This document shows, piece after piece, positions 4,430-15,812 of a DNA stretch of 16,120 nucleotides. A model generated the notes under the pieces. It did not search any database. It saw only the letters and a list, made by a program, of their open reading frames with translations, and was not told the origin of the DNA. A program made the translations under genes and the position numbers. Within the stretch, counting starts at the first letter, position 1, and each line of letters starts with the position of its first letter. Source of the DNA: Candidatus Hydrogenedentes bacterium CG07_land_8_20_14_0_80_42_17 (GTDB lineage Bacteria; UBA8481); assembly GCA_002780065.1 (NCBI GenBank), contig PEWQ01000068.1, positions 1 through 16,120 on the forward strand, read 5' to 3'.

Positions 4430-4804
4430 GTGCGTTTTCTCGCCGACGAAAACTTCGACACCCTTGTAGTCAAGACGCTTCGCGAGGCTGGGCATGACGT
4501 GTCGTGGATCCGCGACATTGCGCCCGGTGCGCCGGATGAAGAGGTCTGGGATCACGCCGTGAAAGAGAATCGAATTCTTCTGACCTTTGACAAGGACTTC
4601 GGCGAGGTCGCCTTCGTTCGGACGCGCACCGTCATTCCGGGAATCATCCTCTTTCGCCTTCACGGCGTTCCGGCAGATGAGATCGTTGCAAAGATCACGG
4701 CCGCGATTACATCGCGCGAGGAATGGCTCGGCCATTTCAGCGTCGTGGACGATAAGCGAATCCGCATGACGCCGCTCAGACGGCCTCGGGTTCAGAAAGA
4801 TTGA
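4430..4804 (+). CDS. DUF5615 PIN-like protein, putative ribonuclease toxin
   Basis: A 124-residue protein matching the DUF5615 PIN-like family. Hallmarks are the N-terminal FLADENFD (Asp6, Glu7, Asn8) and 'ILLTFDKDFG' (Asp54, Asp56), the acidic residues expected to coordinate metal in PIN-type nucleases. 'PDEEVWDHAVKE' precedes them, as in homologues, and the length is usual. It starts at GTG 4430, 3 bp after the DUF433 stop, and has no strong ribosome binding site of its own, which fits translational coupling. The reading frame is complete and the acidic residues are present, so it is probably active. Toxicity and RNA cleavage are inferred from family membership. Confidence 0.82.
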   Translation: MRFLADENFDTLVVKTLREAGHDVSWIRDIAPGAPDEEVWDHAVKENRILLTFDKDFGEVAFVRTRTVIPGIILFRLHGVPADEIVAKITAAITSREEWLGHFSVVDDKRIRMTPLRRPRVQKD

Positions 4805-4899
4805 AGAACCGCTCCACCTGCGATAAAGATGATTCCGAGGAACTCCGGCGAGAGGTCGAGGAATTCGTGAAGCGCCGCAGGCCTCGGCCGATGACCTAA
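4756..4899 (+). pseudogene. Possible short coding remnant at the end of the cassette
   Basis: An open frame without an ATG runs from just after an in-frame stop at 4753 to a TAA at 4897-4899. Its last part, from about 4829, encodes a charged helix-like run (DDSEELRREVEEFVKRRRPR) before the stop. The final codons run into repeat copy B. It could be the 3' end of another cassette gene, or chance in G+C-rich DNA. I recognise no family. Confidence 0.25.
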
Positions 4900-4909
4900 T
4901 AAAATAAGG
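4893..4909. repeat. Left fragment of direct repeat copy B
   Basis: GACCTAATAAAATAAGG matches copy A at 3942-3958 in 16 of 17 positions. Its last 8 bases (AAATAAGG, 4902-4909) pair with AAATACGG at 5350-5357 as an apparent target-site duplication of the element at 4910-5349. Removing the element and one copy of the duplication restores a continuous copy B. Confidence 0.8.
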
Positions 4910-5349
4910 GTAACTATTCAGCCATTTTTAACCACCGAAATCGCCGAAGACGGCGAATAGGTAAATAATGAAGATCCCTCTCGAACATGAAGAATTGACG
5001 GGAAGAATTCGGCAAGCGGCCTTTGAGACTCACTGCTATTTTGGGAACGAGTTCCTGGAAAAGATATACGAGAACTCGCTCTCTCGACATCTCCGAAAGA
5101 TTGGATTAGGCGCTTTACAGCAAGAGCCCATCACGGTTCGCGACGAGGCGCAAGTGCATCATTATCTCAAAATCTCAAAGCTAACGGACTTGCTCTCGAA
5201 CTCCTCATTAACTTCGGGGCCGAAAAGCTCCAATTCAAAATGATAATTCGAACTCGGAAATGACAAAACCTTACTTCCAATTCGTCTCTTGTTCGGCGAA
5301 TTCGGCGGTAAAAACAGGTAAACGGTTACCAAGTGTGCTGAATAGTTAC
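4910..5349. mobile_element. 440-bp inverted-repeat element carrying a broken GxxExxY gene
   Basis: The ends are perfect 13-bp inverted repeats: GTAACTATTCAGC at 4910-4922 and GCTGAATAGTTAC at 5337-5349. Inside them a second imperfect inverted pair is visible: TTTTTAACCACCGAAATCGC on the left against TTTTTACCGCCGAATTCGCC on the right when read on the minus strand. The flanks are AAATAAGG and AAATACGG, an apparent 8-bp target duplication. The only gene inside is a decayed GxxExxY gene; there is no transposase. The element sits within repeat copy B, in a stretch that is pseudogene sequence there, so it arrived after the duplication. Confidence 0.8.
4968..5263 (+). pseudogene. Decayed GxxExxY protein gene
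   Basis: The N-terminal part matches the GxxExxY family: 'TGRIRQAAFETHCYFGNEFLEKIYENSL', where Gly-x-x-x-x-Glu-x-x-Tyr-like spacing and the flanking residues are recognisable. After 'ITVRDE' the sequence jumps straight to 'AQVHHYLK'. The middle section that in full-length members holds the PD-(D/E)XK-like 'DLLV...ELK' motif, roughly 30-35 residues, is missing. Then an 8-bp tandem duplication (TCTCAAAA/TCTCAAAG, 5165-5180) shifts the frame. Dropping 8 bases restores the typical C-terminus 'LKANGLALELLINFGAEKLQ' to a TGA at 5261-5263. In the uncorrected frame translation ends at 5243. The copy has lost its putative nuclease centre. Confidence 0.85.
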
Positions 5350-10114: not shown

Positions 10115-11686
10115 CTACTTTTTCTTTTCGAATGACACTTTAAATATTGCAAGCATTGTTTCCGGACCAATAACTCCGTCTTCTCTCAGAAAAAATTCTC
10201 TCTGCAATTTTCTAACAGCTTCAACTGTTCCATTTCCAAAATAACCATTCGGTTCATTCAAAAGTAATTTTTCTTTGAAAAGATTTTTTTGAACAGAGAG
10301 TATATCTTCCCCGCGCATTCCACGACGTAATATTCGAGCAAAGTACGGTCTGTCCGGAACCAAATAGCTCACTTCCACATTCTGCATACTAATCTCCAAA
10401 GAAAGCTCTCCTCGCTCAAGAGACTCAATCTTCCAAACACCATTCTTAATATCAGTAATCAAAGCAGGTTCAGAATTAGACAAAATAGCATTGCCCGGAA
10501 TCAAAAGCGCAGGCAGACGAAGTCTTTCAATTGAAGCAGAAGATAATTTAACATTAAAAAGTTTAAGCCCTGTTGTAGATGCAATTGCAGAAAGTTTCAT
10601 TGCGTCAAAATCTTTCGACGCCGTGATATTGTAATGAGTTAATAATTTTCTTAGAGGAGAGATGATTTCGGCTCGTTCTTCGTTATTCACAGAAGCATCT
10701 ATATTTTTCTCAACTTTTTTCAAATTTACAGCTCGAAATATTCCAAACAAAAGAACGCAAAAAGCAATAAACACTATAACGATTCTCATTATTGAAATTC
10801 TACCGCTACTATCCGGCGGAGAATCCAGATGAGCAAAACCCTCAATAACAGTCTCTACAATATCTTTATCGATCGTCTCGCTTTGAATATCCGCTCCAAT
10901 GAGCAATGCCTGATCAGCAACGATATTTATTACTCTAGGTATTCCGCCGGAATATTTGTAAACAAGTTCCGTAGAAGCGCGCGTAAATTCAACCTTCCTA
11001 TCAGGCTCAGCGAGTTCTATTCTATGTTTGATATATGCGAATGTTTCTTCACAATCCATCGGCATCAGATGATAAGTTACGGCAACTCTGCTTCTTAATT
11101 GACGCAGTTCTTTTTTTGCAATAGTTTTCTGCAATTCAGGCTGGCCTATCAGAATTATCTGAAGCAATTTTTCCGTTTCGGTTTCGAGATTCGAAAGCAT
11201 GCGCAACGTCTCAAGAGACTCTATCGAAAGATTCTGCGCCTCGTCTATAAAGACTGCAACCATTCGTCCGCGCTCAAATTCTTCCAAAAGCACTGCATTG
11301 ACCGCGTCGATAATCTCCTTGATTCCCGCTCCTGCTATTCTATCCTTCTCTATTCCCAAATCCTCAGCAATAGCGCAAAGCAATTCACGCGGCTCAAGGC
11401 CGGTATTGAATATCACTGCACATCGAAGAGAATCTCCAATCATCGAGAGGAAGTGTCTTACCAGTGTAGTCTTCCCTGCTCCAACTTCACCGGTAATTAC
11501 TATAAAACCTTTTCCCTGAAATATTCCGTATTGCAGAGCCGAAAAAGCCTCTTCATACCTGCGGTGATTGAAGACCATTTGAGAATCAGGAGTGACATGA
11601 AACGGAATCTTTTTAAAGCCGTACCAATTATCATCGGGAATAATCGTCTTTTCATTATCAACCGATGCAAATATTTTTTCCGTCAT
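10115..11686 (-). CDS. ExeA-like AAA+ membrane ATPase with peptidoglycan-binding tail
   Basis: A 523-residue protein of the ExeA/GspA type. The cytoplasmic ATPase has 'WYGFKKIPFHVTPD' (21-34), Walker A GEVGAGKTT (66-74), Walker B VFIDEAQNL (145-153), sensor 'LIGQPEL' (179-185) and 'LRSRV' (197-201). One transmembrane helix follows at about 299-318. An extracytoplasmic region ends in a PG_binding_1-like domain (about 450-512: 'GEDILSVQKNL', 'GYFGNGTVEAVRKLQ', 'DGVIGPETMLAI'). In type II secretion such proteins help insert the secretin through peptidoglycan; no secretin gene is in view. The start overlaps the stop of the FlhG-like gene by 4 bp (ATGA). It could equally serve a pilus or exopolysaccharide system. 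Confidence 0.85.
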   Translation of the reverse strand: MTEKIFASVDNEKTIIPDDNWYGFKKIPFHVTPDSQMVFNHRRYEEAFSALQYGIFQGKGFIVITGEVGAGKTTLVRHFLSMIGDSLRCAVIFNTGLEPRELLCAIAEDLGIEKDRIAGAGIKEIIDAVNAVLLEEFERGRMVAVFIDEAQNLSIESLETLRMLSNLETETEKLLQIILIGQPELQKTIAKKELRQLRSRVAVTYHLMPMDCEETFAYIKHRIELAEPDRKVEFTRASTELVYKYSGGIPRVINIVADQALLIGADIQSETIDKDIVETVIEGFAHLDSPPDSSGRISIMRIVIVFIAFCVLLFGIFRAVNLKKVEKNIDASVNNEERAEIISPLRKLLTHYNITASKDFDAMKLSAIASTTGLKLFNVKLSSASIERLRLPALLIPGNAILSNSEPALITDIKNGVWKIESLERGELSLEISMQNVEVSYLVPDRPYFARILRRGMRGEDILSVQKNLFKEKLLLNEPNGYFGNGTVEAVRKLQREFFLREDGVIGPETMLAIFKVSFEKKK

Positions 11687-12774
11687 ATCGGGCGGCCTAA
11701 CAATCTTGAAGTAAATATTCTTCCGAGTGAAAGAAAATTATCACTCAAATCCAATTCCTTATTCGATAAAAGATTATTTGCAATCATATCGATGGATCTC
11801 GATGCCTGACATTTCGGGTCCGCAATTCTAAACGGACATTGAGTCCTAACAGCTCTTACAACAGCTTCGTCGCGCATTACGGAACCGAGATAGAATATTT
11901 TTATTCCGAGCAAAGACTCCGCATTTTTCACAAATTTCCGAGCAGTTTGAAGTCCTTCTGAAAGAGTTTCAACACGATTAATAATTATCATAGGTTTAAA
12001 TCTTGAAAGAGCCGTATTCCATATTTCTCTCAATTCTTTACTTCCGACTTTTTCAACATTTTGAGCCAGAATCTGAAAATTCCCTCTGGCCACAGTGTTC
12101 AATCTATCAAACTCAGATTTATATTCCGATAAAGATTCAAATTCACTTCTTATTCTACGAATAAGCGCATTTTTTATAAATGTGTAACCATTTCTGATTG
12201 AAGATGGTTCAGGATTCAATACAACTATTCCCGAAGAAGTCATTGAAAAGAAATCTAAAACCTCTTTAGATGCTGACGCTCCGAGATCGAATATAACAAG
12301 TTCCGCGTTCACTTTGGAGATTTGCCCCATCAGGCTTCGTCTCTGCTGATAATAAAGATTTCCTAAAATCAAAGAAGCTTCCTCAGCTCCGGCAATAAAA
12401 TCCAATTGAGGAAATCTTGTCGCAGTAATTAATTTATCAATATCGTCTATCGTCTTCTCAATTAAATTATTTATCGAAATATTCGGCCTAATTCCAAGCA
12501 CAAGGTCCGTGCTAGGCATGCCGAGATCTCCATCAATAAGCAAAACTCTTTTTTTAGTCCCGACAAATTTCAAGCCTGCCGCGATGCTGAGGTTGACAGC
12601 CATATTTGTTTTACCGACGCCGCCTTTTCCGGAAGCTATCGGAACAAGCCTGACAGAATCTTGAGAATGTAAATTTTTGGAATGAACTAACTCTACAGCC
12701 TTCTGCGAAGGCTTGAGTATTTCCGACCAGCGCGTCCGCGCCGCGTCTTTTAATTTTTCAAGAACTAAGCTCAT
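11683..12774 (-). CDS. MinD/ParA-family ATPase resembling FlhG
   Basis: A 363-residue deviant-Walker-A ATPase. GKGGVGKTN is at 49-57; the Asn after the Thr is the form seen in FlhG/FleN rather than the usual MinD Thr-Thr. The second motif is 'LLIDGDLGMPSTD' (78-90), comparable to FlhG 'DADLG..N.D', and the Walker B-like 'IFDLGAS' is at 161-167. An N-terminal extension of about 40 residues precedes the domain. FlhG proteins control number and position of flagella, and relatives place pili and other machines. The downstream overlapping ExeA-like ATPase suggests a role in siting an envelope complex. No flagellar gene is visible, so I give no symbol. There is no strong ribosome binding site; the 94 bp upstream contain two abutting inverted repeats. 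Confidence 0.8.
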   Translation of the reverse strand: MSLVLEKLKDAARTRWSEILKPSQKAVELVHSKNLHSQDSVRLVPIASGKGGVGKTNMAVNLSIAAGLKFVGTKKRVLLIDGDLGMPSTDLVLGIRPNISINNLIEKTIDDIDKLITATRFPQLDFIAGAEEASLILGNLYYQQRRSLMGQISKVNAELVIFDLGASASKEVLDFFSMTSSGIVVLNPEPSSIRNGYTFIKNALIRRIRSEFESLSEYKSEFDRLNTVARGNFQILAQNVEKVGSKELREIWNTALSRFKPMIIINRVETLSEGLQTARKFVKNAESLLGIKIFYLGSVMRDEAVVRAVRTQCPFRIADPKCQASRSIDMIANNLLSNKELDLSDNFLSLGRIFTSRLLGRPI

Positions 12775-12868: not shown

Positions 12869-13804
12869 TTACTCGAAGAATTTGCCGTCGAGCTGACCTA
12901 ATGGCGAACCGTTAAGAATAACAACAATGTCCTGATCAGGGTCGAACTCGGATAAAATAGAGAGCGTAGCGGAAATAACAGCTCCGCCTTCCGCTCCGAC
13001 TAGAATTCCTTCTTTACGAGCAAGCAGTTTAGCAGATTCTAAAGCTTCCTCTTTAGATACAGAAATGACTTTTGTTATGAGTCCCTGATTCAGCGAAGAT
13101 GGAACAAACCCTGCTCCTATTCCGCTTATATCATGAGAATGAGCCTTGCCGCCCGATAATGGATTCGATTCAGCAGGTTCAACGGCATATACCTTGAGTT
13201 TCGGATTGTATTCTTTCATTGCTAGAGCGCACCCGCTCAAAGTTGAACCGCTGTTTACTCCGACAACAATAGCGTCCACATCCTTACCAAGAACTTTAAC
13301 TATCTCTTCCGCAGTCTCTTTCTTATGAATGTCAGCACCAAGCTGAGATTCGTAAAGGCTGATTAAAACCCTGCTTCCCGGACTTTCGTTTACGATTTCA
13401 TTCGCCTTGCTTACCGCACCGCGCAAATGCTCATTCGAAGGAGTCTTTACAATTTCGGCTCCAAATGCACGAATAGCACGAGAATAAGCTTCATTTGCAT
13501 CTTCGAAAATTACTGCAACAAGCTTGTAGCCTAGAATAGCAGATATGCCGGCAGCCGCCACAGCACTAGGACCATCGCTCGGAATTACAATAGTTGAATC
13601 CTTTAGGAGTCGGCCGTCTTTCTCAGCTAGAGAAATTAAATGTCTAATCGTCCTGCTACTAGAAATATTCCACGGCAAAAGGTTTTCGAGTTTCAGAAAA
13701 ATCGAAGGACCTGGTTTCGGAGCTAATCTCGATGCTTGAAGAATAGGAGTGCCTTTCGTCAATTCCAATAAATCATCTGCAAGAACACAATTATTTATAC
13801 TCAT
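12869..13804 (-). CDS. Cysteine-synthase-fold protein lacking the PLP lysine
   Basis: A 311-residue intact homologue of CysK/CysM. Much of the fold is well kept: 'FLKLENLLP' (36-44), '[13 protein letters not shown]' region (110-122), '[13 protein letters not shown]' (208-220), 'GIGAGFVP' (228-235) and '[10 protein letters not shown]' (261-270). The cofactor site is not. Aligned by eye, the Schiff-base Lys of 'NPGGSVKDR' is Ser49 in 'LPWNISSSR'; the substrate loop 'TSGNTG' is SDGPSA (76-81); and the phosphate loop 'GTGGT' is NSGST (184-188). Only the Ser near the C-terminus (Ser300) seems kept. It is therefore probably not a PLP enzyme and may act as a binding or regulatory protein. Its ribosome binding site is strong (AAGGAGA), and it sits 67 bp downstream of thiG. 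Confidence 0.82.
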
Positions 13805-13871: not shown

Positions 13872-14663
13872 TCAAAAATCTTTGACCGGAGTTGATGCGT
13901 TAGCATAAAGCTTCTTAGGAATACGTCCAGCAAGAAAAGCTTCTCGTCCCGCAACTATGGCTTGAGACATAGCTCTTGCCATTCTCACAGGATCTTTCGC
14001 TCCGGCAATTCCTGTATTCAATAGAACTCCGTCAATCCCGAGTTCCATTGCAGTGACAACATCGGAAGCCGTTCCAACTCCGGCATCAACTATAATCGGC
14101 TTTTCGATTTCTTCAAGTATAATTCTAATCTGATTCGGATTTAATATTCCCTGTCCGGAACCGATCGGAGCTCCAAGCGGCATAACCGCGGCAACGCCAA
14201 GCTTATCCAATTTTTTTGCAGTCACAGGATCGTCGTTTGTATAAGCCCAAACCTCAAATCCTTCATCGACAAGAATTTTTGCAGCTTTCAAAGTCTCTTC
14301 TACATCAGGCAGTAAAGTCTTCTGCTCGCCTAAAACTTCTAACTTAATCCGATCTCCAATTCCCATCTCGCGGGCCAATCTTGCAACTCGAATTGCCTCA
14401 TCAGCATTGTAGCAACCTGCAGTATTCGGCAGAAGCGTAAAATTAGAAGGAATAAAATCAAGAAGCGTTTTGCCATCTTTTCTTCCTAAATCCACTCGGC
14501 GTAAAGCTACTGTGACAACCTCACTGCCGGACTCTTCCAGCGCAGATTTCATTAGTTCCATTGTGGAATATTTGCCGGTGCCAACTATCAATCTCGAACT
14601 GTAAGATTTGCCGGCTACAATAAGATTACCGTCAACATTTCTATTCGAAATCGAAGCGTTCAC
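13872..14663 (-). CDS. thiG: Thiazole synthase
   Basis: Forms the thiazole phosphate of thiamin from 1-deoxy-D-xylulose 5-phosphate, dehydroglycine and ThiS thiocarboxylate, in the cytosol. The 263-residue TIM-barrel protein shows 'LIVGTGKY' (25-32), '[13 protein letters not shown]' (78-90), the catalytic lysine in RIKLEV (Lys107) with Glu109, 'YTNDDP', '[13 protein letters not shown]' and '[10 protein letters not shown]'. I chose GTG 14663: it overlaps the response-regulator stop as GTGA and has AAGGA 9 bases upstream. A TTG at 14693 would lengthen the protein by 10 residues and overlap its neighbour by 34 bp. No thiS, thiH, thiO or thiF is in the window. Confidence 0.93.
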
Positions 14664-15403
14664 AATCCAAATTCCTTCAGAGCCTGAACCCAATCCGGAT
14701 ATATCTCAAAATGCTTTGCAAAATTAGATTCCTTCAAAGTATTCAAATGCTCTTCGGTTTTCGTAATAAATTTAATTTCAATTTCGTTTTTCTTTGCAAT
14801 CTGCTGTAAGCGCGCCAGCTTTCCAAAAGAAAGCGTAGAAATTTCTCCGGTCAAAGAAAAATCCAAAAGAATCGATGTAGAACCTGTTTCAAAAAGTCTC
14901 TGAATCTGCCTTAATAGTTCCTCGTCTTTTTGATTTGGATATTCCTTTCCAATCAAAACCGTTGAAACTATCGGCCAAGATGATTTATTTTTCGGCTCTT
15001 CAATTTTTTCCGGTTCTCTCTTCGTTCCTGACTGCTGAATCAACTTGAGCGCCTTTTGCATAAGCTGATCCAGATTGAATGGTTTGACAATATAATCTTT
15101 AGCTCCAAGCTTCATAGCCTGCAAAATGTCATCCTCGGTTCCTTTTGCAGATACAACCAGAACAGGGATTGAAGAGGTTCTCTCATCAGAACGAAGTTTT
15201 TCAAGAACTTGAAAGCCGTCTATTCCCGGCATCATAATATCAAGAAGCATTAGATCAGGCTGATTGTTAATTGCCAATGTAATAGCCGCAAGACCATCCT
15301 GCGCCGACAAAATATCAAAACCTTTCCGCTTCAAATTAAACTCAAGAATGTTCCTAACATTTGTCTGATCATCGACTACAAGAATTGTGTTTCTTTCACT
15401 CAT
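14660..15403 (-). CDS. Response regulator: receiver plus STAS-like domain
   Basis: A 247-residue protein. The receiver domain (about 5-122) is complete: acidic pair Asp11/Asp12, phosphoacceptor Asp55 in LLDIMMPG, Ser85 in 'VLVVSAKG' and Lys107 in VKPF. After a charged linker the C-terminal region (about 150-247) resembles a STAS (anti-anti-sigma) domain: '[20 protein letters not shown]', then helix-rich sequence and '[14 protein letters not shown]'. The usual DSSG phosphorylation site is not kept (STLS instead). It therefore probably signals through protein contacts, not DNA binding. The start at ATG 15403 is set by GGAGGAG at 15408-15414; an ATG at 15418 lies upstream of that site. It overlaps the HEPN stop by 8 bp and thiG by 4 bp. 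No histidine kinase is in view. Confidence 0.85.
14673..14677 (-). promoter_or_regulatory. Ribosome binding site for thiG
   Basis: AAGGA on the minus strand, 9 bases before the GTG at 14663. It favours the GTG over the TTG at 14693, which lies upstream of it. Confidence 0.55.
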
Positions 15404-15812
15404 GAATCTCCTCCACATTTAACTTATTTCTGACAAATTTCTTTACTTTCTTTGCAATCGCAAAAGCCTCTTTAGCATCTTCTATTCCTGGCTGGAATGT
15501 GACATCCGGATAACGAATCTCTACTGCATAATCTGTAAGATTGTCAGCATCATTTAACTCATCTTTGAAAGAGGAATCTACATTCGCACATAATTCTAAC
15601 AAATTAATTATTTTATGACTTTTAGTAAAGTAAATTTGATGGTGTACTAAAAATGCCTTAATATACTTCTCTACGGCCTGCTGGCAATGAAAACAAACAG
15701 TTTCTGTGACAGGATTTTCAAAAGATAACTCCCTTTCTGAACTCAAAAGATCTTTATCCGCCTTCATTATCCATTTATTAACCAAACCTTTAATAATTTC
15801 ATCTTGATTCAT
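15396..15812 (-). CDS. HEPN-domain protein of an MNT-HEPN pair
   Basis: A 138-residue helical protein of the HEPN family. 'CFHCQQAVEKYIKAFLVHH' (40-58) is the typical 'H.Q.A.EK..KA.L' helix, followed by 'SHKIINLLELC' (65-75) and 'YAVEIRYPD' (95-103). The Rx4-6H ribonuclease motif is not seen: no His follows Arg100 at the right distance. This copy may be non-catalytic, or belong to the RYP subgroup. I start it at ATG 15812, which has GGAAAGG about 7 bases upstream; the open frame extends to 15878 but overlaps the MNT gene heavily. It overlaps the MNT end by 14 bp and the response regulator start by 8 bp, so the three are chained in translation. Confidence 0.82.
   Translation of the reverse strand: MNQDEIIKGLVNKWIMKADKDLLSSERELSFENPVTETVCFHCQQAVEKYIKAFLVHHQIYFTKSHKIINLLELCANVDSSFKDELNDADNLTDYAVEIRYPDVTFQPGIEDAKEAFAIAKKVKKFVRNKLNVEEIHE
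15408..15414 (-). promoter_or_regulatory. Ribosome binding site for the response regulator inside the HEPN gene
   Basis: GGAGGAG on the minus strand, 4 bases before the ATG at 15403, encoded within the last codons of the HEPN gene. It rules against the in-frame ATG at 15418 and ties response-regulator translation to the toxin-antitoxin-type pair. Confidence 0.75.

Follow-up and report, generated by a model that had tools for sequence, protein, structure and literature searches.

A homologue of cysteine synthase CysK that carries Ser in place of the Schiff-base Lys is encoded beside thiG in the window, by which we mean the whole analyzed stretch of 16,120 nucleotides. We are close to certain that this Lys-less CysK is a selected pseudoenzyme, devoid of covalent PLP binding and of cysteine synthase chemistry, and it is probably maintained as a non-enzyme helper protein. 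As for its task, we tentatively favor, at somewhat less than an even chance, a PLP-free CysK paralogue that has been selected to assist ThiS/ThiG, without catalysis of its own, in the thiazole step; we infer its partner and mechanism from gene linkage. The window is contig 58 of a draft genome that is 87% complete (G000), and in the genome set compared the phylum is represented by one other genome (G001, here the relative), which belongs to the same order and another family. The genes concerned are listed below.

12869..13804, minus strand: Lys-less CysK/PALP homologue of 311 aa, with Ser49 (AGT) at the Schiff-base Lys position
13872..14693, minus strand: thiG, intact (Pfam ThiG, 1e-106), 76% identical to the thiG of the relative
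14660..15418, minus strand: response regulator whose C-terminal domain is STAS-like (Response_reg, 2e-30), first gene of the conserved block response regulator-thiG-Lys-less cysK

Elsewhere in the window, a HEPN and nucleotidyltransferase pair, probably a toxin-antitoxin module, is located at the contig end (15396-16116). A DUF5615 PIN-like ORF is accompanied at 4430-5243 by a short PDDEXK_3 ORF whose match is confined to the first half of the family model, and an XrtA/PEP-CTERM-type ATPase with a peptidoglycan-binding domain adjoins a MinD-like ATPase at 10115-12774.

Active-site sequence and predicted fold

The original prediction had described an intact CysK homologue, and its ORF, strand and coordinates proved exact. 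The frame is unbroken, and AAGGAG, located 7-8 bases 5' of the ATG, provides a good ribosome-binding site. The product matched Pfam PALP (PF00291) at 1e-53 (182.9 bits, cut-off 35). Its best NCBIfam match was CysK (TIGR01139) at 2.7e-68, with a score of 230.4 bits that is below the equivalog cut-off of 350.95 bits.

Next, the sequence was aligned with 42 CysKs that represent a range of bacterial families. As predicted, Ser49 was aligned, free of gaps, to the Schiff-base Lys found in 42 of the 42 enzymes. The substrate loop TSGNTG was replaced by SDGPSA, in which Asp77 and Pro79 align with the Ser and Asn of TSGNTG, and the phosphate loop GTGGT was replaced by NSGST (residues 184-188); both readings had been made correctly in the original prediction. 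The change of the C-terminal DSGERYL motif to GSPLGQL had been absent from it. Furthermore, Leu150 had taken the place of the conserved substrate-site Gln. At 16 core cofactor and substrate sites, the choice of which rests on established CysK structural knowledge, the Lys-less CysK departed from CysK at 13 and the orthologue in the relative at 10, with at most one departure in each comparison enzyme. Losses were also enriched in the active-site loops, with 31 of 47 conserved columns lost compared to 21 of 66 elsewhere (Fisher p 5e-4), and with 27 of 47 compared to 17 of 66 in the orthologue (p 9e-4); these loops were hand-picked around known motifs, and the p-values are descriptive.

The AlphaFold2 model, built from a 44-row alignment, showed the full CysK fold (pLDDT 93, pTM 0.91) and was superposed on M. 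tuberculosis CysK (2q3d) with a Z of 43.0 and an rmsd of 2.1 Å over 305 residues. Foldseek and VIA-align returned CysK and its close relatives throughout among the matches listed. The orthologue was likewise modeled as a complete CysK fold (pLDDT 91). Another lysine at the Schiff-base position would have contradicted the original prediction, and a check of residues 38 to 62 found no further lysine. Lys38 was ruled out as a substitute, being itself a CysK-invariant residue. Since the alignment is gap-free there and the predicted helix 48-62 begins at the expected place, no other lysine fills this position.

We think it very unlikely that the protein works as an unusual PLP enzyme, with the cofactor bound non-covalently or through another lysine. 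The fold is kept, and the K41A mutant of a CysK retains PLP as an external aldimine (1d6s). However, the loss extends beyond the Lys to the O3' Asn and to most of the phosphate loop, and the orthologue also lacks the residue at the N1-contact position. By comparison, five further PALP proteins were found in the window's genome, all with lysine at the cofactor position.

An orthologue in the related genome and signs of selection

A search for homologues sharing the variant and the thiG linkage, as had been suggested, led to the orthologue in the relative. It is about 47-49% identical (best match, 49% over 289 residues) and lies in the same order, response regulator-thiG-Lys-less cysK. It reads GGTSSDR, again with Ser for Lys, and TDGTTA for TSGNTG, and its phosphate loop is partly kept as HSGGT. 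The Ser codon is AGT in the window gene and TCG in the orthologue; a sequencing or assembly error behind the Lys-to-Ser change was ruled out by this independent genome, whose Ser belongs to a different codon class. In a tree, the two proteins formed one clade (SH-aLRT 100) separate from the canonical CysK of the window's genome, although both branches are long and the exact placement among CysKs is unsure.

At the four-fold sites of conserved residues, third bases of the pair agreed at 13 of 65, which is the chance level and indicates saturation, with residue identity at 47%. Conservation of this non-canonical protein despite saturated synonymous sites shows that the gene is under purifying selection. 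The original proposal of a selected pseudoenzyme is thus well supported by an orthologue in another family with the same Lys-to-Ser change, by the thiG linkage and by the saturated synonymous sites. Identity to the counterparts in the relative was 47% for the Lys-less CysK, 76% for thiG and 50% for the response regulator. The faster evolution than that of thiG is what would be seen in a decaying relic carried along by its operon position. Nevertheless, the gene has stayed intact in both genomes across a distance that saturates synonymous sites, its product folds confidently and it has its own good ribosome-binding site; we consider decay extremely unlikely.

We also read the best-scoring loci from 386 genomes across bacterial families, among which no more Lys-less members were found. 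A scan of genome contigs gave one PALP protein, which bears the lysine, and viral contigs gave none. So far, the Lys-less form is known only from these two genomes, both of them drafts.

Gene neighborhood and the thiazole pathway

The order response regulator-thiG-Lys-less cysK is common to both genomes, as is a four-base overlap between the response regulator and thiG (ATGA or GTGA). In the window, thiG probably starts at a GTG slightly downstream of the listed TTG, in overlap with the stop codon of the response regulator (GTGA). This copy is the only full-length thiG found in the window's assembly. In the relative, the operon is longer and reads thiS-histidine kinase-response regulator-thiG-Lys-less cysK, with ATGA overlaps, and its thiS is genuine (TIGR01683, 72.8 bits, cut-off 37.45). 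In contrast, the block in the window lacks an adjacent kinase gene, and a dedicated thiS was found neither beside it nor elsewhere in the 87%-complete genome. At a further locus (L057), thiG is located ~0.9 kb from a normal CysK on the opposite strand.

In our preferred reading, the protein would serve the thiazole-forming step as an accessory or regulatory subunit, its CysK scaffold binding ThiG or thiocarboxylated ThiS. It may hold or gate the carrier instead of catalyzing, comparable to mycobacterial CysM receiving CysO. The operon includes a two-component system, and the linkage to thiG could therefore be co-regulation only.

The same linkage allows a sensor that reports the status of sulfide, cysteine or the carrier to the adjacent kinase and STAS-containing response regulator. 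The response regulator is conserved at the locus, the kinase is present in the operon of the relative, and a biosynthetically inactive CysK homologue, C. elegans CYSL-1, acts as a regulator that depends on sulfide (PMC5562914). However, the window has no adjacent kinase gene, and Asp77 and Leu150, in place of the CysK Ser and Gln, would abolish the carboxylate-binding site used by the C-terminal tails of partners. We regard such a sensor as unlikely; with the PLP-free enzyme discussed below, it is one of the two main alternatives to our preferred reading. The originally suggested sulfur-carrier-binding or sensing role is accordingly divided: the carrier link has gained weight, as thiS heads the operon of the relative, and sensing by the CysK tail route has become less likely owing to the carboxylate-loop changes. 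A STAS-like output is unusual for a response regulator, and it adjoins thiG in two families; the STAS match is weak in the window (E 0.013, below the cut-off) and above the cut-off in the relative (3.6e-5).

Gene presence in the two genomes was then tested family by family. ThiH and ThiO are the known glycine-imine sources, and neither was above its profile cut-off in either genome. Both genomes have thiG, so the pathway has a gap at the supply of glycine imine. ThiC was found in the relative only, and not in the 87%-complete genome of the window. The ThiH/ThiO gap bears on the suggestion that the rebuilt pocket is a PLP-free enzyme catalyzing a cofactor-independent step near ThiG, e.g., on glycine imine or a thiazole tautomer, which we judge unlikely. 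Ser48, Ser49, Asp77, Tyr151 and Ser185 are common to the pockets of both orthologues, the same new residue occupies 6 of the 9 jointly lost core sites, and the orthologue keeps part of its phosphate loop. On the other hand, no catalytic set is recognizable, the orthologues disagree at positions 79, 184 and 272, and an unrecognized oxidase or missing sequence may close the ThiH/ThiO gap. A broader form, in which the PLP-free CysK derivative serves ThiS/ThiG thiazole synthesis in this sparsely sampled phylum, either as a dedicated subunit or as an enzyme without cofactor, and possibly covers the missing step, seems similarly unlikely.

Cysteine synthesis appears to be served by other genes. The window's genome has CysE and a separate, normal CysK bearing the lysine. 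In the relative, neither a CysE above the cut-off nor a canonical CysK was seen; a Lys-bearing CysM-type gene adjoins genes for a JAB protease and for a carrier-MoeZ-rhodanese fusion. This cluster (L103:3101-5966, G001 contig C62) has the MoaD/CysO-like carrier, the MoeZ-like E1 and the rhodanese fused in one ORF. A separate cysteine route in both genomes fits with the Lys-less CysK being freed of cysteine duty. Another carrier cluster, in the window's genome (L104:5749-8227, G000 contig C124), comprises a ThiS-like carrier ending in GGGR, a PLP enzyme of the MetY/MetB type and a MoeB/ThiF enzyme, and breaks off at the contig end within a JAB protease; we take it to resemble the HcyS-MetY-HcyF-HcyD methionine cluster of Wolinella.

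Comparison with known systems

The Lys-less CysK resembles O-acetylserine sulfhydrylase (TIGR01139) in its whole fold, its length and most scaffold motifs. It differs in that the Schiff-base Lys is absent, that TSGNTG, the substrate Gln, GTGGT and DSGERYL are altered and that its score is under the family cut-off. Annotation pipelines could easily call it a cysteine synthase, crediting an activity that is most likely lost.

Mycobacterial CysM is a PLP enzyme that accepts sulfur from CysO, a carrier of the ThiS fold. A possible likeness is that a PALP protein is linked to a ThiS-fold sulfur carrier: thiS is in the operon of the relative, and none was found beside the window gene. Unlike CysM, our protein is very probably no PLP enzyme, and the relative has its separate Lys-bearing CysM beside the carrier-MoeZ-type fusion. 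CysM-type PLP catalysis on O-phosphoserine is unlikely because the Lys is absent. A CysK without its Lys, conserved beside thiG and in one case with thiS, would join two sulfur-carrier pathways built on the same ThiS fold; it also offers a defined protein pair for testing.

CYSL-1 is likewise an inactivated CysK homologue with a non-enzymic role. It is said to keep the bisulfide site and to bind a C-terminal Ile tail, and in the known moonlighting mode of CysK the active site takes up the C-terminal Ile of a partner (PMC5562914). Compared with CYSL-1 by its description, our protein has Asp in the carboxylate loop and a different gene linkage. Tail binding in the style of CysE or CYSL-1 looks unlikely because both orthologues have Asp77 in this loop and Leu150 for Gln. 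M. tuberculosis Rv3778c is an expressed relative of PLP enzymes without the PLP lysine and was judged non-catalytic (PMC12910592); as a cysteine-desulfurase relative, it belongs to a different fold class. Among the papers found, none was on point for Lys-less cysteine synthase pseudoenzymes, and the literature searched contained no bacterial CysK that lacks the Lys and is conserved with thiG. Inactivated relatives of PLP enzymes are already known from CYSL-1 and Rv3778c, and the thiG-linked bacterial Lys-less CysK is new to that literature.
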